DNA of 64,000 nt from Lysobacter helvus (GTDB lineage: Bacteria > Pseudomonadota > Gammaproteobacteria > Xanthomonadales > Xanthomonadaceae), in assembly GCF_018406645.1 (NCBI RefSeq), contig NZ_AP024546.1:2790001-2854000 (forward strand), written 5' to 3'. The notes under the pieces are model-generated. The model ran no database searches. It was not told the origin of the DNA and saw only the letters and a list, made by a program, of their open reading frames with translations. Positions within the stretch are counted from its first letter, which is position 1. Each line of letters opens with the position of its first letter. Position numbers and translations under genes: made by a program. Positions 403 through 21,426 of the stretch are shown one piece after another.

Positions 403-486
403 TGTGCGCTCATGGCCGATAGCAGACACCCGTCGGTACCTGCCCACCACGCGACAACAGTGTCTGCTTTCGATCCAAAGCGGACA
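403..486 (+). repeat. Array repeat unit 1 (L+R, 32-bp spacer)
   Basis: L half-site 403-428 is degenerate (TGTGCGCTCATGGCCGATAG); R half-site 461-486 is good. The 32-bp spacer belongs to the three-turn class. The unit lies 5 bp after the stop at 397 and 83 bp before the next start. Confidence 0.8.
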
Positions 487-569
487 TTCGGCCAGCGCGT
501 GCCTTCCCACCTTGGGGCGGTTATAAGGCACCACTGGACCTTGGGTCAGTCGATTAGGCGGTACCCCCT

Positions 570-905
570 TTGCGCAAGCTGATCACTCTTACCGTTGCGA
601 CGACTCTCATTGGATGCGCGACACAGACACCAGTGTCGACACACTCCTCGTCTGCTCGCGTAGATGACGAGGGCGTAGTGACTTACTACGACCGGAATCA
701 GGATGGCGCTATTGATTTCGAGTTCCACGATTTCGTGTGCTGCGATCGAAATTGGGCGCGGGTTGATACTGACTTCAACGGCCAATACGACTTGCTTGCC
801 CGATGGGGCTACAGCTTGACTCGGACACCGATAGATAGTCCCGTCCCAAGGTCCGTTCCGTTTACGACGATTACGAAGGGAGAACCGCCAATATCCGGCT
901 GGTAG
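570..905 (+). CDS. Small lipoprotein with EF-hand-like loops (111 aa)
   Basis: The protein begins at TTG 570 and carries a lipoprotein signal peptide ending in LIGC (Cys16). Two acidic stretches, DRNQDGAIDFEF and DTDFNGQYD, look like calcium-binding EF-hand or dockerin-type loops. This suggests an outer-membrane-anchored, possibly calcium-binding protein; no function is known to me. The TTG start is inferred because it gives the complete MRKLITLTV signal sequence and no upstream ATG fits. Confidence 0.65.
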   Translation: MRKLITLTVATTLIGCATQTPVSTHSSSARVDDEGVVTYYDRNQDGAIDFEFHDFVCCDRNWARVDTDFNGQYDLLARWGYSLTRTPIDSPVPRSVPFTTITKGEPPISGW

Positions 906-922
906 GCCTACGTGCAGACAAA

Positions 923-985
923 TGTCCGCTTCTGGCCGAAAGCGGACATGCCCGCCGAGTGACCGCTTTCGACCCAAAGCGGACA
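923..985 (+). repeat. Array repeat unit 2 (L+R, 11-bp spacer)
   Basis: L 923-948 and R 960-985 both match the consensus well. R ends 71 bp before the Tsi6-like gene. Confidence 0.9.
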
Positions 986-1056
986 TTCGGTGCGCCCCAA
1001 GCGCCACGCTCGCCAGCGCCGAATTACACTTCGATGCCAGGACCGCAGGGGCGAAA

Positions 1057-1338
1057 ATGAAGGCGAGAGACGTTGTGCAGAATGCGCTAAGTCTGGCGCG
1101 CAGCCGCCTAGGCGAGTCGCCGCAGTACCCGATATACGAATCCTGCGTGGCTCAGTTGGAGTACCTGCTGTCCACCTTGGATGGAAGTATTCCGGTTGAC
1201 CGCCCCAAGCTTCGTACTTTCACCATCGGGCACTATGCGGTGCGGGAGCTTGAAGAATCGGATGAAGAGTTGTCGCGTGTGCTCAAGGAGGCGTATCTCA
1301 TCGCGTCCAAGTTGGCCGACGGCCTAAAGATTTCCTAG
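1057..1338 (+). CDS. Tsi6-like immunity protein (93 aa), orphan
   Basis: This small helical cytosolic protein resembles Pseudomonas aeruginosa Tsi6, the immunity protein that neutralises the type VI secretion effector Tas1, an enzyme producing (p)ppApp. Shared features recalled from Tsi6 are the spacing of an N-terminal helix, the YP-Y segment, a QLEYL-like motif (residues about 33-37), a T-G--AV-E--E-D-ELSR motif (about residues 57-76) and LK-AY...GLK near the C-terminus. No effector or T6SS gene is next to it, so it would be an orphan immunity gene. ATG 1057 follows a GCAGGGG purine stretch. It reads away from R of unit 2. The family call is from memory, not a search. Confidence 0.7.
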   Translation: MKARDVVQNALSLARSRLGESPQYPIYESCVAQLEYLLSTLDGSIPVDRPKLRTFTIGHYAVRELEESDEELSRVLKEAYLIASKLADGLKIS

Positions 1339-1363
1339 TTCGGCTCTATTGCGGCTTTGTGCA

Positions 1364-1389
1364 TTTCCGCTGCTGGCCGACAGCGGACA
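1364..1389 (+). repeat. Array half-site L (unit 3)
   Basis: A lone L half-site (TTTCCGCTGCTGGCCGACAG, then CGGACA) stands 25 bp after the stop at 1338. No R follows before the next gene at 1411. Confidence 0.8.
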
Positions 1390-1410
1390 TTCGTTCTACG
1401 GAGGATTGAA

Positions 1411-1603
1411 GTGAACTCGCGATGCTACATCTGTAGCCGTCGACTCAACAACGCCGACGATCCGCTTTCCACTGATTGGGGATTGTTGGGGTTGCGTTGG
1501 ACCCATGGAAGACGGTTGGCCACAGTCAGCCGCGAAGGTCGCCGAAGAAATCGCTGCGGGGCTCCGGGAGCCGGACGGGAGGGCGAAACCACCGCCCCAG
1601 TGA
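1411..1603 (+). pseudogene. Frameshifted Cys-rich small protein gene, copy 1
   Basis: A GTG start with CGGAGG before it opens a frame reading VNSRCYICSRRLNNADDPLS. The expected continuation, STDCGGDCWGCVG, is damaged by a 5-bp net deletion near 1474-1490. After it, the true frame (MEDGWPQSAAKVAEEIAAGL) resumes out of phase and ends at TGA 1601-1603. The 193-bp length is one base more than a whole number of codons. A second copy at 15253-15451 is broken at a different place. Intact relatives, recalled from memory, have a CxxC pair plus a DCGGDCxxC motif, likely a zinc-binding fold. Confidence 0.7.
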
Positions 1604-1624
1604 TGTCCGCTTGGAATTCAACTG

Positions 1625-1750
1625 ATGCTGCTCGACGATGAGTTGGAGCTGGCTGTCCACGGCACCTTTGGTTCCGTGCAGGAAATCAGCCGCGACGTTC
1701 TTGCTGCACTCGCCGAGCACTCTCAGACTGCAACCCCTTCGTCGACGTGA
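1625..1750 (+). pseudogene. Gene fragment (41 codons) joined to a broken half-site
   Basis: A short frame starting MLLDDELELAVHGTFGS and ending ATPSST looks protein-like, with a regular acidic helix around ISRDVLAALAEH. It has no ribosome binding site. Its upstream part runs straight out of a repeat half-site truncated after TGTCCGCTT (1604-1612). I read it as the 3' end of an array gene whose front was lost by recombination at the repeat. A genuine tiny gene is possible. Confidence 0.35.
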
Positions 1751-1776
1751 CGGAACTGAAGACGTCGGCGCCAGCA

Positions 1777-1802
1777 TGTCCGCTTCTGGCCGATAGCGGA
1801 CA
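1777..1802 (+). repeat. Array half-site L (unit 4)
   Basis: A consensus L half-site 26 bp after the fragment stop at 1750. There is no R before the membrane protein gene at 1904, and the 100 bp between show nothing recognisable. Confidence 0.85.
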
Positions 1803-1903
1803 TCGAGCCCAGTTATCGTGCGGGCAATCAGCGTGCAACGCGATGTTGGCGACCGCGCCCGCGTTGACTATGCTCGGGGTCGGGCACCAGGGGTGGGCAG
1901 ACG

Positions 1904-2206
1904 ATGATCAAGATTCCGCGCGGGCTCGCGTTCGCCGGCACGGCCATGCTCGTCGCGAGCGTCGTGCAGTGGTGCATCACGGCGGAGTCATCGCCGGCCC
2001 GCGGCTATCTCCTTTATCACGTCGCGCTGCCGAATGCCTGGGCGACGATCAACCTGCTGCCTTTCCTTGCCGCGGGCGCCATGGGTGGAAACATCCACGC
2101 ACCGCCGACCTGGATGTATCTGTGTGCCTTCTTCATCCAGTGGGCCCTCGCCGGGGTGCTCGCCGCTCTCGTGTTCCAAAGGTTTCGCAGTGCCCGGGGG
2201 CGATGA
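1904..2206 (+). CDS. Small membrane protein (100 aa)
   Basis: The protein starts MIKIPRGLAFAGTAML and has about three hydrophobic segments (residues 7-26, 38-60 and 70-90), ending in the basic tail RFRSARGR. It is probably an inner-membrane protein of unknown function. GGGGTGGGCAG precedes ATG 1904. It is a single-gene module between units 4 and 5. Confidence 0.6.
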   Translation: MIKIPRGLAFAGTAMLVASVVQWCITAESSPARGYLLYHVALPNAWATINLLPFLAAGAMGGNIHAPPTWMYLCAFFIQWALAGVLAALVFQRFRSARGR

Positions 2207-2237
2207 CGGCACCATGCCGACAAGCACGCAATACGAA

Positions 2238-2311
2238 TGTCCGCTTATCGCCGAAAGCAGGCATTTGATCGGCCCCTTGGCTGAGTGACCGCTTTCGACC
2301 CAAAGCGGACG
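2238..2311 (+). repeat. Array repeat unit 5 (L+R, 22-bp spacer)
   Basis: L 2238-2263 and R 2286-2311. Its spacer is nearly identical to that of unit 7 (TTTGATCGGCCCCTTGGC, then GAG), so these two units share recent ancestry. Confidence 0.9.
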
Positions 2312-2380
2312 TTCGACGAGCCCTCACGCTGAGCGTCTGGCCGGCTTGTGAGTCGGACTCCGCCTGCATAAGCTCACGCC

Positions 2381-2719
2381 GTGAGCCAACTCGACAACAT
2401 TCCGCCACACCTTCGGATGCGATCAATTTCCCCGAGGGAAATCGTGCTTCCGCTCGCCGACGCACTGGAAGCAATCGACTACTTGGAGTCCCGATCGGCC
2501 CTTATCCTGGGCTGGGAGGGCTGGGTAAAGGCGGCTGATGGTCGCGTTGGGCATGGCAGCGCTGGCTACCTGAGTACATTCACCGAGCATCTCTCGGTGG
2601 CTGAGGCTGCCACCGACGCGCGCAAGACGATCCAAGCTGGCGCATTGGACTGGCAAGAAAAACATGGTGGCGGCACCGATGCTTTGCACTTCTGCATCAC
2701 GGTGAGGTTGCCTGGCTAG
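2381..2719 (+). CDS. Hypothetical cytosolic protein (112 aa)
   Basis: Begins at GTG 2381 (MSQLDNIPPHLRMRSISPRE) and has no signal or membrane segment. The pattern is alpha/beta, with GWEGWVKAADG near residues 47-57 and a C-terminal strand FCITVRLPG. I have a vague memory of similar uncharacterised proteins in soil bacteria, but no function. It lies between units 5 and 6. Confidence 0.6.
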   Translation: MSQLDNIPPHLRMRSISPREIVLPLADALEAIDYLESRSALILGWEGWVKAADGRVGHGSAGYLSTFTEHLSVAEAATDARKTIQAGALDWQEKHGGGTDALHFCITVRLPG

Positions 2720-2729
2720 CAGGACTGCC

Positions 2730-2803
2730 AAAGGTCTTCTGGCCGAAAGCGGACATTTGGTCGGCCCATCGGCGGAGTGACCGCTTTCGACCCAAAGCGG
2801 ACA
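2730..2803 (+). repeat. Array repeat unit 6 (L+R, 22-bp spacer)
   Basis: The 5' part of L (2730-2755) is decayed, while TCTGGCCGAAAGCGGACA is intact. R is 2778-2803. Confidence 0.85.
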
Positions 2804-2841
2804 TCGGCTAAATTCCACGCTCGTCGCGTGGACATGGAATT

Positions 2842-3090: not shown

Positions 3091-3123
3091 TGGCCGATAG
3101 CGACACCAGACTGGAAGGCGCAC

Positions 3124-3507: not shown

Positions 3508-3513
3508 TACGAA

Positions 3514-3587
3514 TTTCCGATTCTGGCCGAAAGCAGATATTTGATCGGCCCCTTGGCAGAGTGACCGCTTTCGACCCAAAGCAGACA
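3514..3587 (+). repeat. Array repeat unit 7 (L+R, 22-bp spacer)
   Basis: L 3514-3539 carries several substitutions; R 3562-3587 is close to consensus. L begins 6 bp after the stop. Confidence 0.85.
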
Positions 3588-3718
3588 TTCGGGCCGCTCG
3601 TTCGGAGCCGCTCAGTTCGGTAATGTGTCGGCTAGGCGTAGTTAGGCGATAGGCAACATGCAAGACAACTCACACTCGTCGTTGGCATTTCACGGGGCTG
3701 TGAACTCTTCTGCTCCAG

Positions 3719-3943: not shown

Positions 3944-3947
3944 CGTT

Positions 3948-4011
3948 TGTCTGCTTCTGGTCGAAAGCCGACATGCGGGCCGCGGTGACCGCTTACGACC
4001 TAACGCGGACG
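3948..4011 (+). repeat. Array repeat unit 8 (L+R, 12-bp spacer)
   Basis: L 3948-3973 and R 3986-4011, each with a few substitutions. L begins 4 bp after the stop at 3943. Confidence 0.85.
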
Positions 4012-4087
4012 CTCCGCCGGACCGCTTGTTCCGTGCTATCAGCCAGCTTGTTAGCCTGCCGCAGGTTGCATACGATTCGCCGCACAC

Positions 4088-4384: not shown

Positions 4385-4418
4385 ACTTCGCGAGCCGGCC
4401 TGATTGAAGTTTGGGGAA

Positions 4419-4444
4419 TGTCCGCTTCTGGCCGAAAGCGGACG
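4419..4444 (+). repeat. Array half-site L (unit 9)
   Basis: A near-consensus L half-site 34 bp after the stop at 4384. No R half-site follows. Confidence 0.85.
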
Positions 4445-4484
4445 CCGGAGACAACCGGACAATTCAGACAAGGACGCTGATGAA

Positions 4485-4703: not shown

Positions 4704-4715
4704 GCCCGGCGGAAA

Positions 4716-4779
4716 TGTCCGCTTCTGGCCGATAGCGGACATTGGTCACCGGGTGACCGCTAACGACCCAAAACGGACA
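4716..4779 (+). repeat. Array repeat unit 10 (L+R, 12-bp spacer)
   Basis: L 4716-4741 is consensus. R 4754-4779 is slightly changed (GCTAACGACCCAAAACGG). Confidence 0.85.
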
Positions 4780-4848
4780 ATCGGACGCCTGCGCGCGGGC
4801 CAGTTGTTTCGGCGATGATTGTGGCCATCTGCCCCCGGGGACAGGCAA

Positions 4849-5343
4849 ATGCATAGATCTCAAAGGCTGATCCTGCTGGCGTCCCTGGCGTTGGCAGGAT
4901 GTTTGGGCGGAGGCGCAGACATGCGTGTGTACCAAGACTTCAGTGCCGATCCCGGGGCTGCTGTGCAGAAGTATCGTGAGGTGTGGAGCGCGTACCAGCC
5001 GGAGGACATTTCCGACGACCGAATGTTCATCGCGTCCGAAATGATGAGGCACGACCTGGATCGGCGTGAAGACTACTACCGCTTCATTGTTGCCCATGTT
5101 CGCAAAGAAGGCGGGGCCTATCGGACGTCCGCCCTTCGAGCGCTGGCGTATGCGACGGGTACCGAGTCACTTGAGATTTTGTTTGAAGCATACGAAAGCC
5201 GCGAGGACATGGCCGCGCGGGAGGCGCTCCAGAGCATCAAGCTTCGCTATGAGTACGCAAAGGCCGTAGGGGATTCGAACGAGATGGCGTTTGTGAAGAA
5301 GCGATCTTCGGAGGCGCTCAAGAGGCTTCAGGCGCCGCAATAA
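4849..5343 (+). CDS. Lipoprotein (164 aa), helical
   Basis: ATG 4849 gives a textbook lipoprotein signal peptide (MHRSQRLILLASLALAGC, Cys18). The mature part is strongly helical and charged; its paired helices around SALRALAYATGTESLEILFE suggest a short HEAT-like repeat, which is inference. Probably periplasm-facing. GGGGACAGG precedes the start. No function recognised. Confidence 0.65.
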   Translation: MHRSQRLILLASLALAGCLGGGADMRVYQDFSADPGAAVQKYREVWSAYQPEDISDDRMFIASEMMRHDLDRREDYYRFIVAHVRKEGGAYRTSALRALAYATGTESLEILFEAYESREDMAAREALQSIKLRYEYAKAVGDSNEMAFVKKRSSEALKRLQAPQ

Positions 5344-5390
5344 CGGTCGAAACGTGTTCGCAAACGAGCGGAATTAGGCGACCGAGAGAA

Positions 5391-5453
5391 TGTCCGCTTC
5401 TGGCCGAAAGCGGACATCGGGCCTGAGTGACCGCTTTCGACCCAAAGCGGACA
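5391..5453 (+). repeat. Array repeat unit 11 (L+R, 11-bp spacer)
   Basis: One of the most canonical units: L 5391-5416 and R 5428-5453. Confidence 0.95.
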
Positions 5454-5493
5454 TTGCGCGGGCACAATTGGCGTTAGCGAAGCTGGGGGTGCT

Positions 5494-5811
5494 GTGACTG
5501 ACGTTTCGGACGGCTCAGGGATTACCTTTGAGGCGGCGCGGCGCCTTGCGCTTGCAAGCTGCGACTCATTATGCGGCGAGTACCTGGAGGCAGAGCACTG
5601 CTGGATATTCTTTGCTGCTCGTCCCGGCGATTTCGCCACAGCCGTGTCTCGGACAGGTCAAGTGAGCATGGTGTATGACCTGCGGGATGACCCCATAAAA
5701 ATGCAGGAATACTTGGCTCTCTATTCCGCGTACTGCTCCGGAAATAAGCAGGAGACGGAGGTATTTTTGCAAAACTTCATGCGGAAACACTATTCCTCGT
5801 GGCGCCCGTGA
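5494..5811 (+). CDS. Hypothetical cytosolic protein (105 aa)
   Basis: Starts at GTG 5494 after a GGGGG stretch. Begins MTDVSDGSGITFEAARRLAL; the HCWIFFAARPGDFATAV segment suggests an alpha/beta fold. No signal peptide. Its TGA (5809-5811) lies one base before R half-site unit 12, with no L half-site left, so the 3' end may have been altered by recombination. Confidence 0.55.
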   Translation: MTDVSDGSGITFEAARRLALASCDSLCGEYLEAEHCWIFFAARPGDFATAVSRTGQVSMVYDLRDDPIKMQEYLALYSAYCSGNKQETEVFLQNFMRKHYSSWRP

Positions 5812-5812
5812 G

Positions 5813-5837
5813 TGACCGTTTCGACCCAAAGCGGACA
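5813..5837 (+). repeat. Array half-site R (unit 12), L missing
   Basis: An R half-site with one base missing (GACCGTTTCGACCC) abuts the stop codon at 5811. Confidence 0.8.
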
Positions 5838-5893
5838 TTGGAGCGACATAATCGGATCAGCGCCCAAACACGATTACTCGAACCGGCTCCCCG

Positions 5894-6166: not shown

Positions 6167-6173
6167 CCGCCGA

Positions 6174-6199
6174 TGTCCGCTTCTGGCCGATAGTGGAAA
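6174..6199 (+). repeat. Array half-site L (unit 13)
   Basis: Lone L half-site 7 bp after the stop at 6166; its last bases are mutated (AGTGGAAA). The next start follows only 26 bp later. Confidence 0.8.
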
Positions 6200-6225
6200 T
6201 CGCTGATTCGCTACAGTTGCCAACC

Positions 6226-6591: not shown

Positions 6592-6603
6592 CGACTAGTC
6601 CAA

Positions 6604-6659
6604 TGTCCACTTCTAGCCGATAGCTCAAGCAGGGCGTCCGCTTTCGACCTAAGCGGACA
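6604..6659 (+). repeat. Array repeat unit 14 (decayed L + R, 7-bp spacer)
   Basis: L (6604-6627) has lost part of its 3' arm; R (6635-6659) is recognisable and touches the stop codon of the minus-strand gene at 6660. Because R resembles the reverse complement of L, R here may be that gene's own downstream half-site, turned round. Confidence 0.75.
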
Positions 6660-7160: not shown

Positions 7161-7220
7161 AATTCCCCATGTGATCACATCCCGTAGGGAAGGTTAGCAC
7201 GCAGCATCGCAACGCTAGTC

Positions 7221-7265
7221 CGGGCGGACATTGGCCGAGTGACCGCTTTCGACCCAAAGCGGACA
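7221..7265 (+). repeat. Array repeat unit 15 (L remnant + R)
   Basis: Only GCGGACA (7224-7230) of L remains; R 7240-7265 is consensus. It lies between the inverted gene and the next plus-strand gene. Confidence 0.8.
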
Positions 7266-7329
7266 TTCGCCTGCAATCGCACGATCCGGTAAAACGGGCG
7301 GGTAGGCGTGCGCGCCGCAGAGACTCGTT

Positions 7330-7659
7330 ATGGAAACAGTCGAGGTACATCCGCATTCGTTTTCGTCGGAGTCCTGGCCCTTCGCGGATCCGATCAATAC
7401 GCTCGCCTATGCATCCAGTCAGGTCCTCAACGGCCGCCCGATACTGCTCGTGTTCCATGATCACGACGGGGAATGGCAGTTCCTGACTGGCGAGGATCGC
7501 GAGGAGTGCAAGATCATTTGCCTCGGTTGCGCATTTGAGCGGGATGCTGCCCTTGCAGGTCTTGCTGCCATGCCAATCGGCTGGATGGCTTACAGGGCTT
7601 CAATGGACAAGAGTTGGCAGTGCGAGCCATACGAGGATAGCGACGGGGTTGAGGACTAA
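7330..7659 (+). CDS. Conserved hypothetical protein (109 aa)
   Basis: ATG 7330 opens METVEVHPHSFSSESWPFAD. The sequence WPFADPINTLAYASSQVL, HDHDGEWQFL, an acidic stretch and a C-terminal LAAMPIGWMAYR match a pattern I recall in uncharacterised, possibly immunity-like, small proteins. No enzymatic motif is visible. The immunity idea is inference from size and company only. Confidence 0.6.
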   Translation: METVEVHPHSFSSESWPFADPINTLAYASSQVLNGRPILLVFHDHDGEWQFLTGEDREECKIICLGCAFERDAALAGLAAMPIGWMAYRASMDKSWQCEPYEDSDGVED

Positions 7660-7677
7660 CGGTTCGCGAATATCGAA

Positions 7678-7740
7678 TGTCCGCTTCTGGCCGGAAGCGG
7701 ACATCAAGCCTGGGCGTCCGCTATCGACCCAAAGCGGACA
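7678..7740 (+). repeat. Array repeat unit 16 (L+R, 11-bp spacer)
   Basis: L 7678-7703 and R 7715-7740 (R begins CGTCCGC). Confidence 0.9.
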
Positions 7741-7791
7741 TTCGCGGTCTCTCGTTTATCGTATGGGGCAGACGCTTTCGAGATTCGCCCA

Positions 7792-8070: not shown

Positions 8071-8073
8071 CCA

Positions 8074-8099
8074 TGTCCGCTTTTGGCCGAAAGCGGACA
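8074..8099 (+). repeat. Array half-site L (unit 17)
   Basis: Good L half-site (TTTTGGCCGAAAG centre), with no R before the next gene at 8136. Confidence 0.85.
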
Positions 8100-8135
8100 C
8101 CGGAAGTCATCTGGCCAAGCACGAGGAAAGGATGG

Positions 8136-10183: not shown

Positions 10184-10196
10184 CTGCTCGAGGTAA

Positions 10197-10255
10197 TGTC
10201 CGCGCCTGGCCGACAGCGGACATATCGAGTGACCGCTTTCGACCCGAAGCGGACA
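10197..10255 (+). repeat. Array repeat unit 18 (L+R, 7-bp spacer)
   Basis: L 10197-10222 and R 10230-10255. The 7-bp spacer is one of the few that fall outside the 11/22/32 classes. Confidence 0.9.
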
Positions 10256-10310
10256 TTGCGCCTACTGGTCTGGCAGAGTTGCGACTTGGTCGAAGGCATG
10301 CAGGTCAAGA

Positions 10311-10607: not shown

Positions 10608-10612
10608 GAAAA

Positions 10613-10638
10613 TGTCGGCTTCTGGCCGATAGCAGGCA
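10613..10638 (+). repeat. Array half-site L (unit 19)
   Basis: L half-site with TGTCGGCTTCTGG and a mutated 3' arm (AGCAGGCA), 5 bp after the stop. Confidence 0.8.
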
Positions 10639-10759
10639 CTGCGAGAGCCTCACGAGGGGAGCGGAACTCATGTCACCAACGAGGATAGGCGCCGATTTCA
10701 ACGGACTAGTCCCCGTCGTCGACTTTTTAGGCCGAGTCTGCTTGCATAGGCTTTGACTC

Positions 10760-11131
10760 ATGGATGGTCGGGGTAAAGACATGCCCATCTTGCGGTTTCG
10801 GGAACGAGTCCGCGCGGAAGGCCGGTTCATTCGTCAAATGGGCGCAGGTCGCTTTGCGATCATCAGCCTCGACGTCGAACCCATTTTGTCCGGGTTTGAG
10901 TTTTGTTGGGAAGTCGCGCCCGATCTTGTTCCGCCAGCCTATGCAGATGCCGCCCTTGCGGGTATCAATGGGTTGCTTGAGCGTTCCGGTCTCACATGCG
11001 ATCAGACCCGCGTCCGTGTCGTCGAAGGGGCGCATCACGCTGTCGATTCAAGCCCCATGTGCTACACGGTCGCAACGAGCATTGCTTTCCAGGATGCAAT
11101 CGATCGTGCCGGCATGACTTCCGACTACTAA
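10760..11131 (+). CDS. Stand-alone EF-G domain IV-like protein (123 aa)
   Basis: The whole protein resembles domain IV of elongation factor G. Visible correspondences are the opening RVRAEGRFIRQMGAGRFAII, like the EF-G stretch ending GGRGQYGHV; a GFEFCWEVAPDLVPPAYADA block, like EF-G GYEF...VIPGEYIPAV; and VVEGAHHAVDSSPMCYTVAT, like FGSYHDVDSSELAFKLAAS. GTPase domain I and the other domains are absent. Domain IV mimics a tRNA anticodon arm, so this could act at the ribosomal decoding site, perhaps as a protection factor (inference). Start ATG 10760; an internal ATG at 10781 is possible. Confidence 0.6.
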   Translation: MDGRGKDMPILRFRERVRAEGRFIRQMGAGRFAIISLDVEPILSGFEFCWEVAPDLVPPAYADAALAGINGLLERSGLTCDQTRVRVVEGAHHAVDSSPMCYTVATSIAFQDAIDRAGMTSDY

Positions 11132-11149
11132 CGGAGTCGCTTTCGCTGA

Positions 11150-11175
11150 TGTCCGCTTCTGGCCGAAAGCGGACA
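11150..11175 (+). repeat. Array half-site L (unit 20)
   Basis: A consensus L half-site 18 bp after the stop at 11131, with no R. Confidence 0.9.
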
Positions 11176-11213
11176 CTAGGCCCCTGTCCCACCAGACGAT
11201 GGCAATAGCAATG

Positions 11214-11603: not shown

Positions 11604-11634
11604 AAGAAGCTTGGCCCTCGTCCGACGTGGCGAG

Positions 11635-11698
11635 TGTCCGCTCCTGTCCAATAGCCGCCATGGGTCGCCGGGTGTCCGCTTCCGACCAAAAGCTGACA
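11635..11698 (+). repeat. Array repeat unit 21 (L+R, 12-bp spacer)
   Basis: Both halves are present but diverged: L 11635-11660 and R 11673-11698. Confidence 0.8.
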
Positions 11699-11748
11699 CT
11701 TCATTTCGGGCAGAATTGCGAGCGTCTAGCCGTTAGTCGGTGCACAGA

Positions 11749-11943
11749 ATGATTCGTCGGATTGTCCAAATTGCATCCAGCGCAGTGATCGTGCTTTGGG
11801 CCTGCGCTTGGCTGCCGCGAGAAGCGCTTCCTGAGGTGCTGTATTGGTTCCTCTTCTGGTTCGGAGGAGTTCTCACCTTGCTACTGGTGCCAGCTCTTAT
11901 CAGTTTCGTCTGGGCAGTCTGGCCGTCCGGTATCCGCGAATGA
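11749..11943 (+). CDS. Small two-helix membrane protein (64 aa)
   Basis: ATG 11749 opens MIRRIVQIASSAVIVLWACA. Two long hydrophobic helices (residues 4-22 and 30-56) and little else. Its TGA (11941-11943) is also the first three bases of the following L half-site (TGACCGCTTCTGG), so the repeat supplies the stop codon. GTG 11740 is an alternative start. Confidence 0.5.
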   Translation: MIRRIVQIASSAVIVLWACAWLPREALPEVLYWFLFWFGGVLTLLLVPALISFVWAVWPSGIRE

Positions 11944-11966
11944 CCGCTTCTGGCCGATAGCGGACA
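11941..11966 (+). repeat. Array half-site L (unit 22), supplies a stop codon
   Basis: L half-site beginning TGACCGC; its TGA terminates the preceding membrane protein frame. Confidence 0.85.
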
Positions 11967-12016
11967 TTGGTAGCCTTGGTTGCCGCTCGCCAATGCGGCG
12001 CTGCCATGGAGGCGTC

Positions 12017-12430: not shown

Positions 12431-12470
12431 GCGGGCGTTCGTTGAAGTTGCCCTCTGGCACCTTGACGAA

Positions 12471-12550
12471 TGTCCGCTTCTGGCCGATAGCGGACGCCCA
12501 GCATCCCACTCGGTCGCGCAGTTCGGGACGACCGCTTCCGACCCAAAGCA
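12471..12550 (+). repeat. Array repeat unit 23 (L + truncated R, 32-bp spacer)
   Basis: L 12471-12496 is near consensus. R begins at 12529 and is cut short after CCCAAAGCA, 7 bp before the next start. Confidence 0.8.
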
Positions 12551-12556
12551 TGAGCG

Positions 12557-12961: not shown

Positions 12962-13045
12962 GCGTGCCGGCTGCTGTTGTGCCGCCGCACGTCTAACAGG
13001 GCATTGAGCCCGTTCGCGGCCCGGCCTAATTCAGGCGTTCGGGAA

Positions 13046-13119
13046 TGTCCGCTCCTGGCCGATAGCGGACACTGGTCGGGCCCCTCGGCCGAGTGGCCGC
13101 TTTCGACCCAAAGCGGACA
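13046..13119 (+). repeat. Array repeat unit 24 (L+R, 22-bp spacer)
   Basis: L 13046-13071 and R 13094-13119. Its spacer resembles those of units 5 to 7. Confidence 0.9.
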
Positions 13120-13198
13120 CTGGGTCCTCTAATCGTGCCGGGCCACTCGGTCCGGGTAGCCTGAGTCCCAGTACGAGAAAAGCCCCAGGGGACTGCAA

Positions 13199-13567: not shown

Positions 13568-13577
13568 CAGGGGCGAG

Positions 13578-13641
13578 TGCCCGCTTCTGGCCGATAGCGG
13601 TCATTTGCCGTAGACGTCTGCTTTCGACCCGAAGCGTGACA
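13578..13641 (+). repeat. Array repeat unit 25 (L+R, 11-bp spacer)
   Basis: L 13578-13603 and R 13615-13641, each with several changes. Confidence 0.8.
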
Positions 13642-13879: not shown

Positions 13880-14179
13880 GTGAAAAACGTCCTGATCCTT
13901 CTCCTCGTCGCCGGCATCGCCTGGCTCGGGTACGCAAAGTACAGCCCGAAACCTGCCAGCGGCTCCGCTGGGCAGCGCCTCGCAAGCGTTTCGTCCGCCT
14001 CGATTCCGCCGGCTCGCGACGATGAAGCCGTCGCCTCATTGTTCAAGTGCGACGGGCGCACCATGTGCTCCCAAATGACGTCATGCGCTGAAGCGACGTA
14101 CTTTGTCCAGCACTGTCCCAACACCAGGATGGACGGCAACAACGATGGCGTTCCATGCGAACGGCAGTGGTGCAACTGA
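13880..14179 (+). CDS. Excalibur-domain membrane-anchored protein (99 aa)
   Basis: GTG 13880 opens MKNVLILLLVAGIAWLGYAK, a signal anchor, followed by a linker and a C-terminal Excalibur domain (residues about 56-98). The domain has the expected cysteines and the calcium-loop signature DGNNDGVPCERQWC. Excalibur domains bind calcium and sit outside the membrane, sometimes beside nuclease domains; none is present here. The TGA is followed with no gap by an L half-site. Confidence 0.75.
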   Translation: MKNVLILLLVAGIAWLGYAKYSPKPASGSAGQRLASVSSASIPPARDDEAVASLFKCDGRTMCSQMTSCAEATYFVQHCPNTRMDGNNDGVPCERQWCN

Positions 14180-14260
14180 TGTCCGCTTCTCGCCAATAGT
14201 GGACCGGCACGATGTCGATCCATGCGTTTCGAAAACTCAGGCCGCGCCACCAAGCGGACA
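14180..14260 (+). repeat. Array repeat unit 26 (L + R remnant)
   Basis: L 14180-14205 starts immediately after the stop codon. Only the end of R survives (CCAAGCGGACATT around 14249-14261). Confidence 0.75.
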
Positions 14261-14291
14261 TTGAAGCCAATCCTTTCAGCAGCTAGCGTCG

Positions 14292-14675: not shown

Positions 14676-14715
14676 ATGCTGCCCTTGGTTCCTCTCCTCG
14701 TCAGTGGCTTTTAGA

Positions 14716-14741
14716 TGTCCGCTTTCGACCCAAAGCGGACA
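14716..14741 (+). repeat. Array half-site R (unit 27), L missing
   Basis: A perfect-arm version (TGTCCGCTTTCGACCC, then AAAGCGGACA) 40 bp after the stop at 14675. It may be an L/R hybrid. Confidence 0.85.
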
Positions 14742-14806
14742 TTCGGATTAGTTCCGGATCAACGCTACAGTGTCGCCGCAGGCAAGGAACGGGGGACAAA
14801 CAGGAA

Positions 14807-15169: not shown

Positions 15170-15205
15170 CAGTCGCACAGCAGTAGCACCTAAGACTCTT
15201 GCGGA

Positions 15206-15231
15206 TGTCCGCTTCTGGCCGATAGCGGACA
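15206..15231 (+). repeat. Array half-site L (unit 28)
   Basis: Consensus L half-site directly before copy 2 of the duplicated Cys-rich gene. Confidence 0.9.
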
Positions 15232-15252
15232 TTCGTTTTCCGGAGGATTGAA

Positions 15253-15451
15253 GTGAACTCGCGACGCAAGATCTGTGCCCGTCGACTCAACAACGACGAC
15301 GACCCGCTTTCCACTGATTGCGGCGGCGACTGCTGGGGTTGCGTTGGACCCCATGGAAGACGGTTGGCCACAGTCAGCCGCGAAGGTCGCCGAAGAAATC
15401 GTTGCGGGGCTCCGGGAGCCCGACGGGACCGCGAAACCACCGCCCCAGTGA
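15253..15451 (+). pseudogene. Frameshifted Cys-rich small protein gene, copy 2
   Basis: GTG 15253 after CGGAGG reads VNSRRKICARRLNNDDDPLS and STDCGGDCWGCVGP, then leaves frame at a CCCC run (about 15347-15350) that carries one extra C compared with copy 1. The other frame continues MEDGWPQSAAKVAEEIVAGL to TGA 15449-15451. So copy 2 keeps the DCGGDCWGC motif that copy 1 lost, but is broken elsewhere. Upstream bases, ribosome site and the downstream half-site also match copy 1, showing duplication of the whole module. Confidence 0.7.
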
Positions 15452-15514
15452 TGTCCGCTCCTGGCCGATAGCGGGCATCCAACCTGAGCGTCCGCTTCCG
15501 ACCCAAAGCGGACA
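15452..15514 (+). repeat. Array repeat unit 29 (L+R, 11-bp spacer)
   Basis: L 15452-15477 starts directly after the pseudogene stop; R 15489-15514. Confidence 0.85.
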
Positions 15515-15611
15515 TTCGAAGTGTCATAACTCCGTCGCCCTTGGCCCAGTCATGAGCTTGTTGGTCCGCCCCAGCTTGCATAAGCTCATTGGACCTATTG
15601 AGAGGGTTGCC

Positions 15612-16001: not shown

Positions 16002-16012
16002 TTGTTGGCGAA

Positions 16013-16070
16013 TGTCCGCTTCTGGCCGAAAGCGGACATTCGCCCACCCGGCTTCGACCCATTGCAGACA
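16013..16070 (+). repeat. Array repeat unit 30 (L + diverged R, 6-bp spacer)
   Basis: L 16013-16038 is consensus; R 16045-16070 is recognisable by GGCTTCGACCC and GCAGACA. Confidence 0.75.
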
Positions 16071-16217
16071 TTCGATCGGTTCGGCCGCCTTCCGGCCGGC
16101 GATCACGAGACCAACGATGACCGCCATCGCCTGCGCTTGACGTAGAACCTACGGATGCCGGCCGCAACCGTTCGCGTCACTTGCACATCCAGAAGGTCGA
16201 CAGCGGGAGACTCGCTA

Positions 16218-18632
16218 ATGAGAGCTGGAACTGTCGCCCTGGTGGCAATGTGGCTAGCCGTGTCAATGATTTCGCGCGCCGCCGAGCCCCAGGCCAGGCC
16301 AACGTACTTGCAGAGCGAAAACCCGACCACGCCGATCGTGGCGCAATCCCGCGCAGTCTGGGACGCGTTGCCGAGCGGGTCGGTGCCTCCATCGACGCCA
16401 CTGAAGGTCGTGCGCCCCGGTCAGTTTTCCTACATGCCGCCCGTCACGGAAGTCGCGTCACCCGATCACCGGCAAGTGGCGGGCACGCAGGACGGCAACC
16501 TCTACGTCCGTCCGGCAACGAGCGATTCCGTTCGCGTGTTGGCAACGGCCGACGACGCCGGGCACTGGGACATCGAAGGTGCGCTCTGGTCGCCCGATGG
16601 CGCATCGCTGGCCGTCAAGAAGATCGACGACGCCCAGGTGCCGCTGACCACGCTGACGGGCGAACAATTCGGCCCGACGAAAATGCGGAAGGTGCGCTAT
16701 TCGCGCGTGGGCCAGCCGTTGCCGAAGACGCAACTGTACGTCGTCGACGCAAGTACGGGCCGGGCGACGCCCATCCTGCACGATCCTGCCCAACCTTATG
16801 TCCAATTGCTGGAGTGGCGCCACGATTCGCGCCAGTTGCGGCTGTTGCGCGCGGATCGTTACCAGACCCACCTGGACTTGCTGGTCGCCGATCCCCGCAA
16901 CGGACAAATTCGCGTGCTGCTGGCGGAACCCAAGCCGATCTCGCTGCTCGGTTTGAACATGCTCGATGGCTACACCCAACAATTGCTCGCGCAGAAGATC
17001 GTCACTTTTCTGCCCGACGACTCGTTCGTCTGGACCAGCGACCGCACGGGGTTCCGGCATCTGTATCACTACAACGCAGATGGCACGCTGCGCCGTGCAT
17101 TGACCGAACAACACATGGCAGGTTGGGTCGACCGCGTCATCGAAGTGGACGTGCCGAACCGGATCGTCTACGCGAAGGCCAATGGCCACGCCCGCAATCC
17201 CTATTTCGATCGACTGGTCCGCATCGAGCTCGACACCGGCAAGATCACCACGATCGCCGAAGCCGACCACATCCCGGCCATCAAGTTTTCAGCGGACAAG
17301 AGCAGGCTCTGGCTGATCCGGGCGGGATTTCCGCAAACGCGTCGCATCGAGGAGATCACCAGCACGGGCACCGCGGTCAGGACGGTGTGGGAAGCCGACT
17401 GGCGGGAGGCCGTCGCGAATGGATACGCGGCCCCCGAAACCGCGCTGGTGCCCGCGGCGGACGGCAAGACGCTGCTTCGCGCCATCGTGGTGGCCCCGCA
17501 TCCGCTCGAACCCGGCAAACGCTACCCGGTCATCCAGGACATCTACGGCGGCCCGAACGCCAGCGTCGTGCCGCCCAGCCCGACCAACCAGAACCTCGCC
17601 CAGATGCGCCGGATCGCACAGCAGGGCTTCGTGGTGGTGATGCTGGATGGCCGCGGCACGCCCGGGCGCGGGCGCGCATTCCAGAATTTCGGATATGGGC
17701 GTTTTGGGCAAGTCGAGCCGGCGGACCAGGTGGCTGGCCTGCGCAACCTGGCCAGGGACCGCCCGTACATGGATCTGTCGCGCGTTGGCGTCATGGGCGG
17801 AAGTTGGGGCGGCTACTTCGGATTGCGCACCATGCTGCTGGCACCGGAGCAGTACAAGGCGGGCGTGTTCGCTGCCGGTGCGTTCGAACTGTCGACGATG
17901 CGCGTCGCCGCCGAACCGTACATGGGCTGCGCGCCGGACGATTGCGCGGACGCGTATGCCGCCGGATCGAACCTGGCGTTGGTGGAGCGACTGCAGGCAC
18001 CGCTCCTGATCCTCCACGGCACCGCCGACGACGACGTGCTGATCGAAGAATCCAGGCAACTGGTCTCCGCACTCGAACGCGCCGGCAAGCCGCATACGTT
18101 CGTGGCATTGGACGGCGCGACCCACGCGATGTGGGAAGAACCGCAAGCCGACGAGGCGCGCATCGCGTTCTTCCGGCAGCACCTGGTGGAGACGAGCGGG
18201 CAGGCCAATGAATCCGCGACCGCAGCGCAGATCGCCGCCGGGATCACGACTGCAAACGCATTCTGGGCCGACGGGATCCGCAGGCAGGATCCGGCCATGC
18301 TTGCCCAGGTGATGGCGCCGGAGTATCGACTGACCTTCGAGAACAGCAGCAAGCGCGTCGACCTGGCGAGTTGGATGCGCAACTTCATGACAATGAAGAT
18401 GCATGGCTACAACCCGAGCATGACCGCCTTGCGCCTGATCGGTCCCGACACCGTCGTGGCAACCGTGGTTTCGGACTGGAACGCGACGCTCTCGAACGGC
18501 AATTCCGTGCGGGAGACGTTTGTTGCGCATGACACCTGGGCGTGGCGCGGGAATCGGTGGGTTGCGACGGGGCGCCATGTCGTCGAGCTGAAGGTGCTCG
18601 ACCAGCCGGATAAGCGGTCGAGTGGAAAGTAG
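16218..18632 (+). CDS. S9 family peptidase (DPP IV-like) with C-terminal DUF4440-like domain
   Basis: An exported serine peptidase of the prolyl oligopeptidase family (804 aa). ATG 16218 gives a signal peptide (MRAGTVALVAMWLAVSMISR). Residues about 40-430 form the N-terminal beta-propeller; the alpha/beta-hydrolase domain follows with nucleophile Ser529 in GGSWGGY, Asp604 in HGTADDDV and His636 in GATHAMW, all three catalytic residues present. Residues about 675-800 form an extra SnoaL/DUF4440-like domain (NAFWADGIRRQDPAMLAQVM, DTWAWRGNRWVATGRH), not usual for S9 enzymes. It would cleave dipeptides or small peptides in the periplasm. It is by far the largest gene within the array. Confidence 0.85.
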   Translation: MRAGTVALVAMWLAVSMISRAAEPQARPTYLQSENPTTPIVAQSRAVWDALPSGSVPPSTPLKVVRPGQFSYMPPVTEVASPDHRQVAGTQDGNLYVRPATSDSVRVLATADDAGHWDIEGALWSPDGASLAVKKIDDAQVPLTTLTGEQFGPTKMRKVRYSRVGQPLPKTQLYVVDASTGRATPILHDPAQPYVQLLEWRHDSRQLRLLRADRYQTHLDLLVADPRNGQIRVLLAEPKPISLLGLNMLDGYTQQLLAQKIVTFLPDDSFVWTSDRTGFRHLYHYNADGTLRRALTEQHMAGWVDRVIEVDVPNRIVYAKANGHARNPYFDRLVRIELDTGKITTIAEADHIPAIKFSADKSRLWLIRAGFPQTRRIEEITSTGTAVRTVWEADWREAVANGYAAPETALVPAADGKTLLRAIVVAPHPLEPGKRYPVIQDIYGGPNASVVPPSPTNQNLAQMRRIAQQGFVVVMLDGRGTPGRGRAFQNFGYGRFGQVEPADQVAGLRNLARDRPYMDLSRVGVMGGSWGGYFGLRTMLLAPEQYKAGVFAAGAFELSTMRVAAEPYMGCAPDDCADAYAAGSNLALVERLQAPLLILHGTADDDVLIEESRQLVSALERAGKPHTFVALDGATHAMWEEPQADEARIAFFRQHLVETSGQANESATAAQIAAGITTANAFWADGIRRQDPAMLAQVMAPEYRLTFENSSKRVDLASWMRNFMTMKMHGYNPSMTALRLIGPDTVVATVVSDWNATLSNGNSVRETFVAHDTWAWRGNRWVATGRHVVELKVLDQPDKRSSGK

Positions 18633-19252: not shown

Positions 19253-19275
19253 GATCGAGTCGGACCCAACGCCAA

Positions 19276-19301
19276 CGTCCGCTCCTGGCCGATAGCGGAC
19301 A
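19276..19301 (+). repeat. Array half-site L (unit 31)
   Basis: L half-site (CGTCCGCTCCTGGCCGATAG) 23 bp after the stop at 19252. Confidence 0.85.
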
Positions 19302-19409
19302 CCTGGGTGCGTACGTGGTTCACGCGACAGGATCACCGAGACCGATGTGGAAATTCCTCAAAGCCAAATCTCCCGGGACCGGTCGACGACGCCCACCAAG
19401 AAGCCTGAA

Positions 19410-19706
19410 ATGAGTTATCGCTGCATTGCCCTGATCACGATGGCCGCGCTTGCTGCTTGCACGGCAGCGACGGAGTCGAAGGTCACGAGCGCGACATGGG
19501 TTTACGAGACGGAGGAGGAGGCCGCGTACGCGGGTGCGATCAACCGGCCCGAGCCGCGCCCGATTGCTGCGCTGGACCAGGGCGAAACCGTCGGTGTCCT
19601 CGACGACACGTATGGAAAGGACTATTGGGCTTGCCGCGTGCGGACGCCGGGCGGACAAACGGGTTGGGTGCTGTGCACGTCGCTGGACTATCGCGCCGAG
19701 GACTGA
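19410..19706 (+). CDS. Lipoprotein with SH3-like domain (98 aa)
   Basis: ATG 19410 opens MSYRCIALITMAALAAC with a lipobox. After a short linker, residues about 45-95 (PIAALDQGETVGVLDDTYGK, YWACRVRTPGGQTGWVLC) look like a bacterial SH3 domain, which often binds peptidoglycan. The TGA is the start of the following decayed L half-site (TGACCGCTTCCGGCCGA). Confidence 0.55.
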   Translation: MSYRCIALITMAALAACTAATESKVTSATWVYETEEEAAYAGAINRPEPRPIAALDQGETVGVLDDTYGKDYWACRVRTPGGQTGWVLCTSLDYRAED

Positions 19707-19999
19707 CCGCTTCCGGCCGACAGGACATCCGACGCAGCGCTTGCCACCTCAGGCGCTGTGCTGGAGGGCGTCGTGAGCAGCTCCGTGACCTGGAGCTGAC
19801 GGACGACGAGATGGTCGATTTCCAGTCGCTTGATGCGTGCCCGTCCGATGACCAGGCGACCGATGACCAGGGCACCGATGGCCGCCGCGCCAACGGCGAT
19901 CGCGCCCAGCGTCATCCCGCCCAGCGCCAGGGCGCCCGTGGACTGCGCACCGACCGCCTTTGCGGGGACTGCGCTGGAGCGTGTGTGTTCGCGTTTCAT
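19688..19999 (-). CDS. Hydrophobic-repeat protein (103 aa), beta-helix type
   Basis: ATG 19999 on the minus strand opens MKREHTRSSAVPAKAVGAQS. The core repeats a short unit: GALALGG-MTLGAIAV-GAAAIGAL-VIGRLVI-GRARIKRL-EIDHLVV-RQLQV, as in small right-handed beta-helix proteins I recall as conserved but uncharacterised. It converges on the SH3-like lipoprotein gene and overlaps it by 19 bp. Confidence 0.55.
   Translation of the reverse strand: MKREHTRSSAVPAKAVGAQSTGALALGGMTLGAIAVGAAAIGALVIGRLVIGRARIKRLEIDHLVVRQLQVTELLTTPSSTAPEVASAASDVLSAGSGQSSAR
19704..19727 (+). repeat. Array half-site L (unit 32), decayed
   Basis: TGACCGCTTCCGGCCGACAG with a shortened right arm; supplies the stop codon of the upstream lipoprotein. 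Confidence 0.7.
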
Positions 20000-20104
20000 G
20001 GTTTGAAGGTTGTCGGCGACTGTCTTAGCCGAGGGGACGGCGCAGGCGACGCAAATCGGCCAAGCATTCCGTGAAGCGCGCCTCCGTGATTGCAGGGCCA
20101 TGGG

Positions 20105-20130
20105 TGGCCGCTTTCGACCCAAAGCGGACA
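20105..20130 (+). repeat. Array half-site R (unit 33)
   Basis: R half-site beginning TGGCCGC, 80 bp before the next start. No L is next to it because a minus-strand gene occupies the space. Confidence 0.85.
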
Positions 20131-20209
20131 TTCGGCGCTCCCGTTCGTGTTGACTTGCGGGCCCGGTGATAATCGCCGGGATCAACCTATTCGTCGGGCG
20201 TCACACACC

Positions 20210-20635
20210 ATGTTCAAGCCTTGGAAGCCGCTGGAAGAATCCTTAGGGAACAATCCCGGCCTCGACGTGCGCGTCGAGGATCGAAGCGTGACAATCGTTT
20301 GGGAGGAAGGGCGGAACGGGCAATGCATTTTCAGAATGCGAATCGCATTTGAGCAATGCTTGGCGAGCCTGATGCTGTGGGATGAAAGCCCGATAGACTT
20401 CCCACCCGGTAGGTTGCCGCATGAATCGTTCGATCCGTCGCATTCCGATCCCTGCTCGGCGTGGGTGGAACGCTCCAGCGCCGTACGCGACCAATACGGG
20501 GAGTACGGCCAAATGCTCTACAAGCGAATCGACCGGTATTACTTCATTGGCCAGTCGACGGTGGTTCTTCTCGATGTTGCAGACGCGGAACCAACGGTCA
20601 CCATTGAGGTGCCTAGGACAGCCGCGGCCTGGTGA
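20210..20635 (+). CDS. Hypothetical cytosolic protein (141 aa)
   Basis: ATG 20210 opens MFKPWKPLEESLGNNPGLDV. A beta-rich start (VRVEDRSVTIVWEEGRNGQC) is followed by helices and YYFIGQSTVVLLDVADAEPT. No signal peptide. The fold pattern recalls Imm-type immunity proteins but no specific family; low-level inference. Confidence 0.55.
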   Translation: MFKPWKPLEESLGNNPGLDVRVEDRSVTIVWEEGRNGQCIFRMRIAFEQCLASLMLWDESPIDFPPGRLPHESFDPSHSDPCSAWVERSSAVRDQYGEYGQMLYKRIDRYYFIGQSTVVLLDVADAEPTVTIEVPRTAAAW

Positions 20636-20646
20636 GTAACACCAAG

Positions 20647-20743
20647 TGTCCGCTTTTGGCCGAAAGCGGACATTCAAGAAAACCAACTCCGCCGCCCGGT
20701 GACAGCCGGTCACCTAGTGACTGCTTTCGACCCAAAGCGGACA
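20647..20743 (+). repeat. Array repeat unit 34 (L+R, 45-bp spacer)
   Basis: L 20647-20672 and R 20718-20743; the longest spacer, about four helical turns. Confidence 0.85.
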
Positions 20744-20780
20744 TACGGTAGGGTGGGTCTATCCCAGGGAGCGGCAAGTA

Positions 20781-21320
20781 ATGAACGTTCGATTTCTGTT
20801 CGCGGGACTCTTGCTGGCGACCTCGGCTAGCGCCGGCGTTCCGAGCGTCAAGAGCTCCTATGTCAGTGCATCTCGTGCTGGTGTCGGAAGGGTTGTCGAG
20901 GCGGATGAAGTGTCACGCGCTGGGCTTCCGGCAGTTTTCGTGTACCGCATCGCGTCCCGTCAGGGGAGCAACCTTCGGATATGTACAGGGGAGAGGTTTG
21001 CGGTTGGTTCTCCGGTGCTTTTCGTGATCGAGAAAGCCAACAAGAGCAATGCTTGTCCGAGTGATGCGACATTCGTGCCTGTCGAAAGCATGCGCACGTT
21101 TGTGCTTGAAGGCGTGTCCTCTCCCTTGCATCGAAGGATTGCGATCAGAGCGAACTATCCGCAATCAGTGGCTTTGGGCTGCCCCCACATGAAGCTGGTA
21201 TCGGTAAGTTCGACGGCGCGGGATATCGCTACCAGGAGGACGATTGATTCGTTTCCGCTGTCCGATCCGGGGACGTATTTCTATCTGGACGATTTCATGC
21301 AGTGCGTGGGGCGGAAATAG
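20781..21320 (+). CDS. Secreted hypothetical protein (179 aa)
   Basis: ATG 20781, after CCAGGGAG, opens MNVRFLFAGLLLATSASAGV, a Sec signal peptide. The mature domain has GRVVEADEVSRAGLPAVFVY, then LRICTGERFAVGSPVLFVIE, cysteine pairs (ICTG/NACPS, LGCPH/MQCVG) and FPLSDPGTYFYLDDF, looking like an OB-type barrel. No function recognised. Confidence 0.6.
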   Translation: MNVRFLFAGLLLATSASAGVPSVKSSYVSASRAGVGRVVEADEVSRAGLPAVFVYRIASRQGSNLRICTGERFAVGSPVLFVIEKANKSNACPSDATFVPVESMRTFVLEGVSSPLHRRIAIRANYPQSVALGCPHMKLVSVSSTARDIATRRTIDSFPLSDPGTYFYLDDFMQCVGRK

Positions 21321-21401
21321 CGTGCGCGACGCGCCAAGCCGAACTCTGTCCGTCGTCCATCAAATGCCGACCGGTTCAACCTCGGTGCCGGTGCGCGAGC
21401 A

Positions 21402-21426
21402 TGCCGCCTCTGGCCGATAGCGGTTC
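21402..21426 (+). repeat. Array half-site L (unit 35), last in the window
   Basis: TGCCGCCTCTGGCCGATAGC with a damaged right arm. No further copies occur after this point. Confidence 0.7.

Follow-up and report, generated by a model that had tools for sequence, protein, structure and literature searches.

Integrons are a well-known bacterial platform that gathers single genes into arrays. In mobile insertion cassettes (MIC/tIS), a passenger gene lies between the ends of a mobile element and is moved in trans. Inverted arms around a short centre are the layout typical of the sites of tyrosine recombinases. Passages in two papers describe chromosomal integrons as common in Xanthomonadales (PMC12444791, PMC8352920). 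Here we describe an array of small genes and paired repeat sites in Lysobacter helvus, whose genome of 3.27 Mb forms a single contig. The window, i.e., the whole stretch of 64,000 nucleotides that was analysed, covers positions 2,790,001-2,854,000 of this contig (G000:C1), and coordinates below are those of the window unless stated otherwise. The locus is probably an orphan array of mobile cassettes from a system that resembles integrons without being one, with a small tyrosine recombinase linked to the same sites in other genomes as the most likely enzyme. Because this enzyme was not found in the L. helvus genome, the array is an orphan here and resembles a CALIN, a cluster of attC sites without an integrase.

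The array and its paired sites

Small genes and paired sites alternate over nearly 40 kb, from about 2,772.7 to 2,811.4 kb of the contig. The part inside the window lies at 402-21427 on the + strand, and the array continues to the left for 17 kb beyond the window to about 2,772,741 (in the stretch L008). The junctions are built from two half-sites, L (ATGTCCGCTT-CTGGCCGA-AAGCGGACAT; left arm, 8-bp centre, right arm) and R (GTGACCGCTT-TCGACCCA-AAGCGGACATT, in the same order). Each half-site is itself palindromic, with 10-bp inverted arms around the 8-bp centre (10-8-10), and the centres of L and R differ.

A scan of 402-21427 identified 31 L-like and 20 R-like sites on the + strand when weak copies were counted, and 29 L and 18 R at a cut of 20/28; two weak calls fell on the reverse strand, one of which (13614) was read as a weak R. 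Allowing up to three mismatches in the whole genome, the L word gave 31 matches and the R word 25, versus 0 for either reversed pattern; the 31 L matches include one palindromic site counted on both strands and two that are R sites. All array copies with at least 20 matches point in the + direction, and three weaker ones in the array stretch were called on the opposite strand. Over a 43-kb stretch, 27 of 39 L copies started between -12 and +20 bp from a stop codon of the same strand, compared with 15% of random positions. The sites and the array are confirmed as real, far above chance. A small second array lies on the other strand at 269.1-271.6 kb of the genome (L010), and isolated copies occur elsewhere.

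The initial annotation had reported 35 repeat units at 403..21426, with L close behind stop codons and agreeing with the reverse complement of R at 22 of 26 positions. The placement behind stop codons and the agreement of 22/26 (consensus words compared by eye) stand. The limits apply to the in-window part of the array, and 35 units is a slight overcount of a real repeat array, as the junctions in the window comprise 17 with both halves (three of them with a weak R), 14 solo L and four solo R.

The two-half junctions from the site scan, all on the + strand, are found at 402-488 (spacer 30 bp), 922-987 (9 bp; both halves identical to the reference words), 2237-2313 (20 bp), 2729-2805 (20 bp; left arm of L degenerate), 3513-3589 (20 bp), 3947-4013 (10 bp), 4715-4781 (10 bp), 5390-5455 (9 bp), 7677-7742 (9 bp), 10196-10257 (5 bp), 11634-11700 (10 bp), 12470-12556 (30 bp; R weak), 13045-13121 (20 bp), 13577-13641 (9 bp; R weak, called by the scan as a reverse-strand L), 15451-15516 (9 bp), 16012-16072 (4 bp; R weak) and 20646-20745 (43 bp). 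Solo L sites on the same strand lie at 1363-1390, 1776-1803, 4418-4445, 6173-6200, 6603-6630, 8073-8100, 10612-10639, 11149-11176, 11940-11967, 14179-14206, 15205-15232 and 19275-19302, with weak ones at 19703-19730 and 21400-21427, and solo R sites at 5811-5839, 7239-7267, 14715-14743 and 20104-20132.

Between the sites, 34 array open reading frames (ORFs) picked by eye from the window, a few of which overlap, were compared with Pfam. Four gave a match: a Tsi6-like gene (PF18660, 1057-1338), an ORF matching EF-G domain IV (10760-11131), a gene with an Excalibur domain (13880-14179) and a long gene of the prolyl oligopeptidase/DPP IV family (16155-18632), all on the + strand. The other 30 had no Pfam match.

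The spacing of the two halves was analysed in L-R units, which were counted only if both halves reached at least 20/28 and the spacer did not exceed 60 bp. This gave 80 distinct units (105 before opposite-strand duplicates were dropped), mostly from Lysobacter-type genomes and falling into 29 sequence clusters. Their spacers measured 5-11, 17-21, 28-32 or 40-43 bp, with one at 54 bp, i.e., near 10, 20, 31 and 42 bp, and none of the 80 fell at 12-16, 22-27 or 33-39 bp. Periodicity near 11 bp reached R = 0.71 for the 29 clusters, a value matched by none of 5000 uniform draws. As the spacers are helically phased, both halves would lie on one face of the helix, which suggests that the sites are recognised as duplex DNA.

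Single-strand folding was predicted to give one long L:R hairpin in 62 of the 80 units for the top strand and in 67 for the bottom strand. A covariation check of the units found no more compensatory changes in arm positions than shuffles did, and self-pairing of the spacer was weak (mean z -0.31, standard error of the mean 0.11, n = 51). The L:R fold is possible, and since the arms show no excess of compensatory changes, selection for it is not established. The earlier view of a full unit as one long hairpin, as in attC sites, agrees with the predicted fold of most units, whereas a mechanism based on it is not established and the phasing favours duplex DNA.

In four alphaproteobacterial loci (L061, L093, L120 and L134; Sphingomonadales and Brevundimonas), half-sites occur as closely spaced direct repeats with the centres TTTCCACCC and TTTCGACCC; the Lysobacter pair is inverted instead.

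Neither of two integron hallmarks was detected. No IntI (TIGR02249) scored above the cut-off in any of five genomes of the genus including that of L. helvus (best 73.8 bits, cut-off 265), and the attC core boxes were as rare as in shuffled sequence (GTTRRRY after R in 0 of 29 cases, RYYYAAC before L in 1 of 39). We class the array apart from integrons because it lacks these two defining features, while its single genes in one orientation with two-part inverted sites (both parts present at 17 window junctions) are as in integrons.

A small tyrosine recombinase bracketed by the sites

A species collection was scanned with a 24-mer of the R core in which two positions were left free, and at least 120 site loci (each at most 8 kb) were found, among others in Lysobacter, Dyella, Rhodanobacter, Sphingomonas, Caulobacter, Brevundimonas, Phenylobacterium, Pseudomonas, Methylophaga, Kiloniella and Nitrospinaceae. 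The 120 listed loci (0.9 Mb) contained 453 site-like words, at least 120 of them being the selecting matches themselves, compared with 12 in shuffled sequence. Two loci from Sphingomonas and one from Sphingosinicella carried a gene for a tyrosine recombinase of 193-203 residues between inverted sites, and in genome G001 such a gene lies inside an array, about 25 bp ahead of a downstream site.

The protein belongs to PF00589 (67.0 and 73.1 bits, cut-off 27.1). R54, K82, H151, R154, H177 and Y186, which correspond to the catalytic R, K, HxxR, H and Y of tyrosine recombinases, are invariant in three sequences. Its alignment to XerD begins in the catalytic half of XerD, so the recombinase has no N-terminal core-binding domain. 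Two members scanned against NCBIfam fell below every cut-off among the models matched. The genome of L. helvus has six PF00589 matches of its own. By eye, two of these were judged to be XerC and XerD and the other four to be longer integrases of the phage type, so that none was assigned to the small family.

Relatives, partial matches counted, were present in 36 of 297 genomes of the family and in 75 of 398 sampled genomes of the phylum. After partial matches (query start >40 or end <170) and short flanks had been dropped, 71 enzyme loci were kept, and a bracketing site was scored if outer arm plus centre reached at least 14/17. A site was present upstream at 30 loci, downstream in inverted orientation at 26 and on both sides at 17 (1 and 0 in the reversed control). 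At least one side carried a site in 39 of the 71 loci (23/30 within the family, 16/41 outside). Control windows placed 500 bp away gave 0/27, 0/30, 0/40 and 1/38 (1/135 in total), and shuffles gave 0/426. Upstream centres were of the R type in 22 of 30 cases and downstream centres of the L type in 20 of 26; the gene therefore lies mostly antisense between L and R. Among the loci listed one by one (the best 48 of 71), the centre of the bracketing site was of the local type, TTTCCACCC, in Sphingomonadales and mostly TTGGGTCG or TCTGGCCG in Lysobacteraceae. Sites with a variable inner arm adjoin the recombinase in several loci, and such a site might be an analogue of attI.

Relatives of the recombinase were also found on 429 of 72,556 plasmids, including an IncY plasmid of E. 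coli (L189). In 40 listed plasmid records they carry a generic integrase or recombinase name or none. Three of 50,697 phage records contained a relative, and none was confirmed by tblastn in viral contigs. The Pantoea plasmid NZ_CP143420.1 has both a recombinase relative and a site, separated by about 4.4 kb.

Proposed movement of cassettes and rival explanations

Duplicated and shared segments were compared for the position of their ends; only segments of at least 150 bp entered the border count, a border was assigned to a site if it lay within 16 bp of the site centre, and the expectation was taken from site coverage. Over 79 aligned segments, 49 of 316 borders fell at sites versus 6.6 expected. 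Among these, comparisons within the genome gave 12/20 (0.9 expected) and comparisons with congeners 10/24 (0.8 expected).

Six segments of at least 124 bp are duplicated within the L. helvus genome, all listed here for the + strand of the window. An R-gene-L cassette at 7245-7704 has a copy at L008 16259-16718 (97.6% identity); identity stops at the right edge of L, and the spacers differ. The L-R-gene segment at 4716-5364 (copy at L008 17957-18602, 97.7%) ends on the right away from any recognisable site, and the gene-R segment at 19749-20131 (copy at L008 8285-8666, 89.6%) ends on the left away from any site. The cassette at 11655-11965 is repeated at 96% in the second array at 271 kb, where the unusual right arm of R is common to both copies and its left arm and centre are not. 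A further cassette at 15199-15459 has its copy within the window at 1357-1611 (89.7%), and this other copy is ended by a half site at 1602-1611 (+ strand) that consists of ATGTCCGCTT without centre or right arm. Finally, a 124-bp stretch at 18638-18761 matches L008 7382-7505 at 96%; as neither end is at a site, this pair is not an example of site-bounded movement.

The array was also compared with 16 stretches of four congeners (264 kb, 134 sites). Only six segments of at least 150 bp were common, at 73-89% identity, so array content shows little sharing between species in the stretches compared. One of the common cassettes (2338-2804, + strand, 89%) occurs in genome G004 at the orthologous locus. 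In another pair, L008 3012-3493 and L179 of G004, the common part begins with the right arm of L, runs through the gene and includes the left arm and centre of R. Both of its ends lie within about 2 bp of the junction between centre and right arm, and each copy is left with a half-site at one end. Across the genus, the host DNA that flanks the array on the right (window 32000-36000) is conserved. In G004, seven sites (about four cassettes) are found 2.7 kb from this flank, and another six follow about 14 kb further to the left. In G003, sites occur at a distance of 18-27 kb, and G001 and G002 have none near. The left host flank matched the four congeners only over short stretches of about 140 bp at most.

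The positions of the borders are compatible with a cut made at the centre's edge, in L as well as in R. In the mechanism that we propose, L-spacer-R units would mark cassette junctions, and each half would act as a simple 10-8-10 site within a helically phased pair. The enzyme would most likely be the tyrosine recombinase of about 200 residues that has no N-terminal core-binding domain and is encoded between inverted copies of the sites, with cleavage taking place where the 8-bp centre meets an arm. Recombination of L with L or of R with R could then excise and insert [R-gene-L] or [gene-L-R] units, presumably by way of circular intermediates and with duplex DNA as the favoured substrate. The initial annotation had suggested a gene-capture system with its own site-specific recombinase, encoded outside the window, rather than a plain integron. 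Site-bounded borders, the few segments common with congeners in the stretches compared, the lack of IntI above its cut-off (0/5) and of an attC core, and a distinct small recombinase bracketed by the same sites support a capture system of this kind. That the enzyme is encoded elsewhere in the L. helvus genome is not supported, as it was found neither there nor in the site-rich genome G004. Overall, the initial interpretation is partly supported.

Several observations weigh against mobile cassettes served by this recombinase. No excision or other recombination product was observed. The recombinase occurs in just 3 of the 120 listed site loci (at most 8 kb each), is missing at E 1e-15 from two site-rich genomes (L. 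helvus and G004), and has no site at the 14/17 cut-off in 32 of its 71 loci. Scans in the wrong orientation also matched (5 and 9 of 30 loci in the family, 3 and 3 of 41 outside), which is expected because the sites are palindromic. At the genome level, enzyme and site co-occur only weakly. The phylum sample includes 25 genomes with sites, 6 of which also have the enzyme (about 4.7 expected); in the family, the enzyme is present in 5 of the 13 genomes that have at least 10 site matches (in one of them only in part) and in 31 of the 284 others. In four of the six phylum genomes with both, site and enzyme (two only fragments) lie within about 3 kb. The AlphaFold model of the recombinase, made with three sequences, is poor (mean predicted local distance difference test score, pLDDT, 51.7). 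With regard to the borders, 59 of the 79 aligned segments, including 2 of the 6 shared with congeners, have none at a site; one of the six duplicates within the genome lacks a site border and two have one end off-site; and border types are mixed (L, R and half-sites). Part of the border excess is built in, because conserved sites lengthen alignments, and homologous recombination between repeats could give part of the pattern.

An unlikely alternative is that the L-spacer-R units are miniature inverted-repeat transposable elements (MITEs) derived from an element L-[recombinase]-R and dispersed downstream of ordinary genes; the intervening genes would then not be mobile cassettes. The recombinase gene does occupy, in antisense orientation, the interval between an R-type and an L-type site, like a replacement for the spacer of a unit, L and the reverse complement of R resemble terminal inverted repeats, and several genomes have their sites in many scattered small groups. 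Against this, the array copies with at least 20 matches point one way and follow stop codons, the genes between them are small and mostly (30/34 scanned) without Pfam match, and segments of gene plus site have been duplicated and exchanged with borders on sites. Still more doubtful is an origin from other repeated hairpins, such as repetitive extragenic palindromic (REP)-like elements of a Y1 transposase, terminators or uptake signals, combined with gene shuffling by homologous recombination. Here the GC-rich palindrome formed by each half behind a stop codon would be accounted for, and homologous recombination would likewise put borders inside repeats, but within the array portion of the window no Rfam match attains the gathering score of its family, the L-R pairs are phased and have distinct conserved centres, and the physical link to a tyrosine recombinase gene is strong. 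Least probable is a classical integron or CALIN with strongly diverged attC sites formerly served by IntI. The overall layout (single small genes in one direction, followed by a pair of inverted simple sites around a variable middle), the predicted long L:R hairpin and the frequency of integrons in Xanthomonadales all agree with it, but it is already largely refuted by the lack of IntI above its cut-off in five genomes of the genus, the missing core boxes, the spacer phasing and the fact that the sites bracket another recombinase family. A member of that family reaches 22.8 bits with the IntI model, whose cut-off is 265.

Surroundings of the array and comparison with known systems

Right past the end of the array, degenerate 21-bp tandem repeats (family D17) occupy 21465-21670. 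At the gathering threshold, Rfam identified only sRNA-Xcc1 and two tRNAs in the window, and none of these lies on the sites. The sRNA-Xcc1 gene (RF02221, 77 bits) is located at 22834-22916, 1.4 kb to the right of the array. A passage in PMC12444791 names sRNA-Xcc1 with symE as the most widespread integron cassette of Xanthomonas; the ORF following sRNA-Xcc1 here (22943-23275) has no Pfam match. Three genes at 24544-27994 encode a DUF4062 protein, an unknown protein and a SIR2_2 protein matching PADLOC PDC-S65 at 726 bits. This group, between the array and a tRNA at 28100, is likely an anti-phage defence locus. Further to the right, a palindromic repeat of about 75 bp (around 32595-32670) has many copies on both strands of the genome and few in relatives, and a repeat of about 720 bp (around 34470-35195) has at least 12 further full or partial copies in the genome at 80-95% identity.

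A search of PubMed Central full text for the site words returned no title or abstract start pointing to these sites. Likewise, none of the titles and abstract starts listed by topic searches described such a system, with subscription papers and preprints outside this scope. The chances appear about even that the array represents a second, integron-independent capture platform spread across Pseudomonadota, including Sphingomonadales and Caulobacterales, and characterised by a minimal recombinase without core-binding domain, single-gene cassettes, helically phased duplex sites and a recombinase gene nested antisense in a site pair. If so, cassette capture would have arisen more than once, with different enzymes and sites. 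The system would also explain many puzzling small genes, as well as palindromes between genes, in bacteria such as Lysobacter, Sphingomonas and Caulobacter, and a very small recombinase with a definable site, whose relatives are common in the phylum and on plasmids, would become available.

The closest resemblance is to integrons and CALINs. Their arrays, too, consist of small genes that all point the same way, and behind each gene stands a site in which two simple sites, inverted relative to each other, flank a variable middle. A tyrosine recombinase, cassette turnover and the occurrence of arrays without a local enzyme are further common points. The present system differs in having no IntI above the cut-off, no GTTRRRY/RYYYAAC core, no compensatory pairing and phased spacers, and the linked enzyme has no N-terminal core-binding domain and is placed between two sites. 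RIT elements (recombinases in trio) likewise carry recombinase genes between inverted, partly palindromic repeats of about 28 bp; they have three recombinases, whereas here there is one of about 200 residues, and the sites also build arrays of gene cassettes. Invertases of the FimB/FimE type are similar in size (about 200 residues) and in consisting of the catalytic domain only. However, the L061 recombinase scored only 22.3 and 19.5 bits with the FimB/FimE models NF007370 and NF007371 (cut-offs 221 and 222), and the sites here form cassette arrays rather than a single promoter switch. Unlike in MIC/tIS, the element that provides the ends here is that of a tyrosine recombinase, and numerous cassettes follow one another in tandem with the same orientation. 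With XerC/XerD-dif, finally, the system shares the catalytic family and the inverted arms around a short centre. The recombinase scores 53.1 bits with TIGR02224 (cut-off 335), and the site described here has another sequence, a centre of 8 bp instead of 6, and many copies instead of one.

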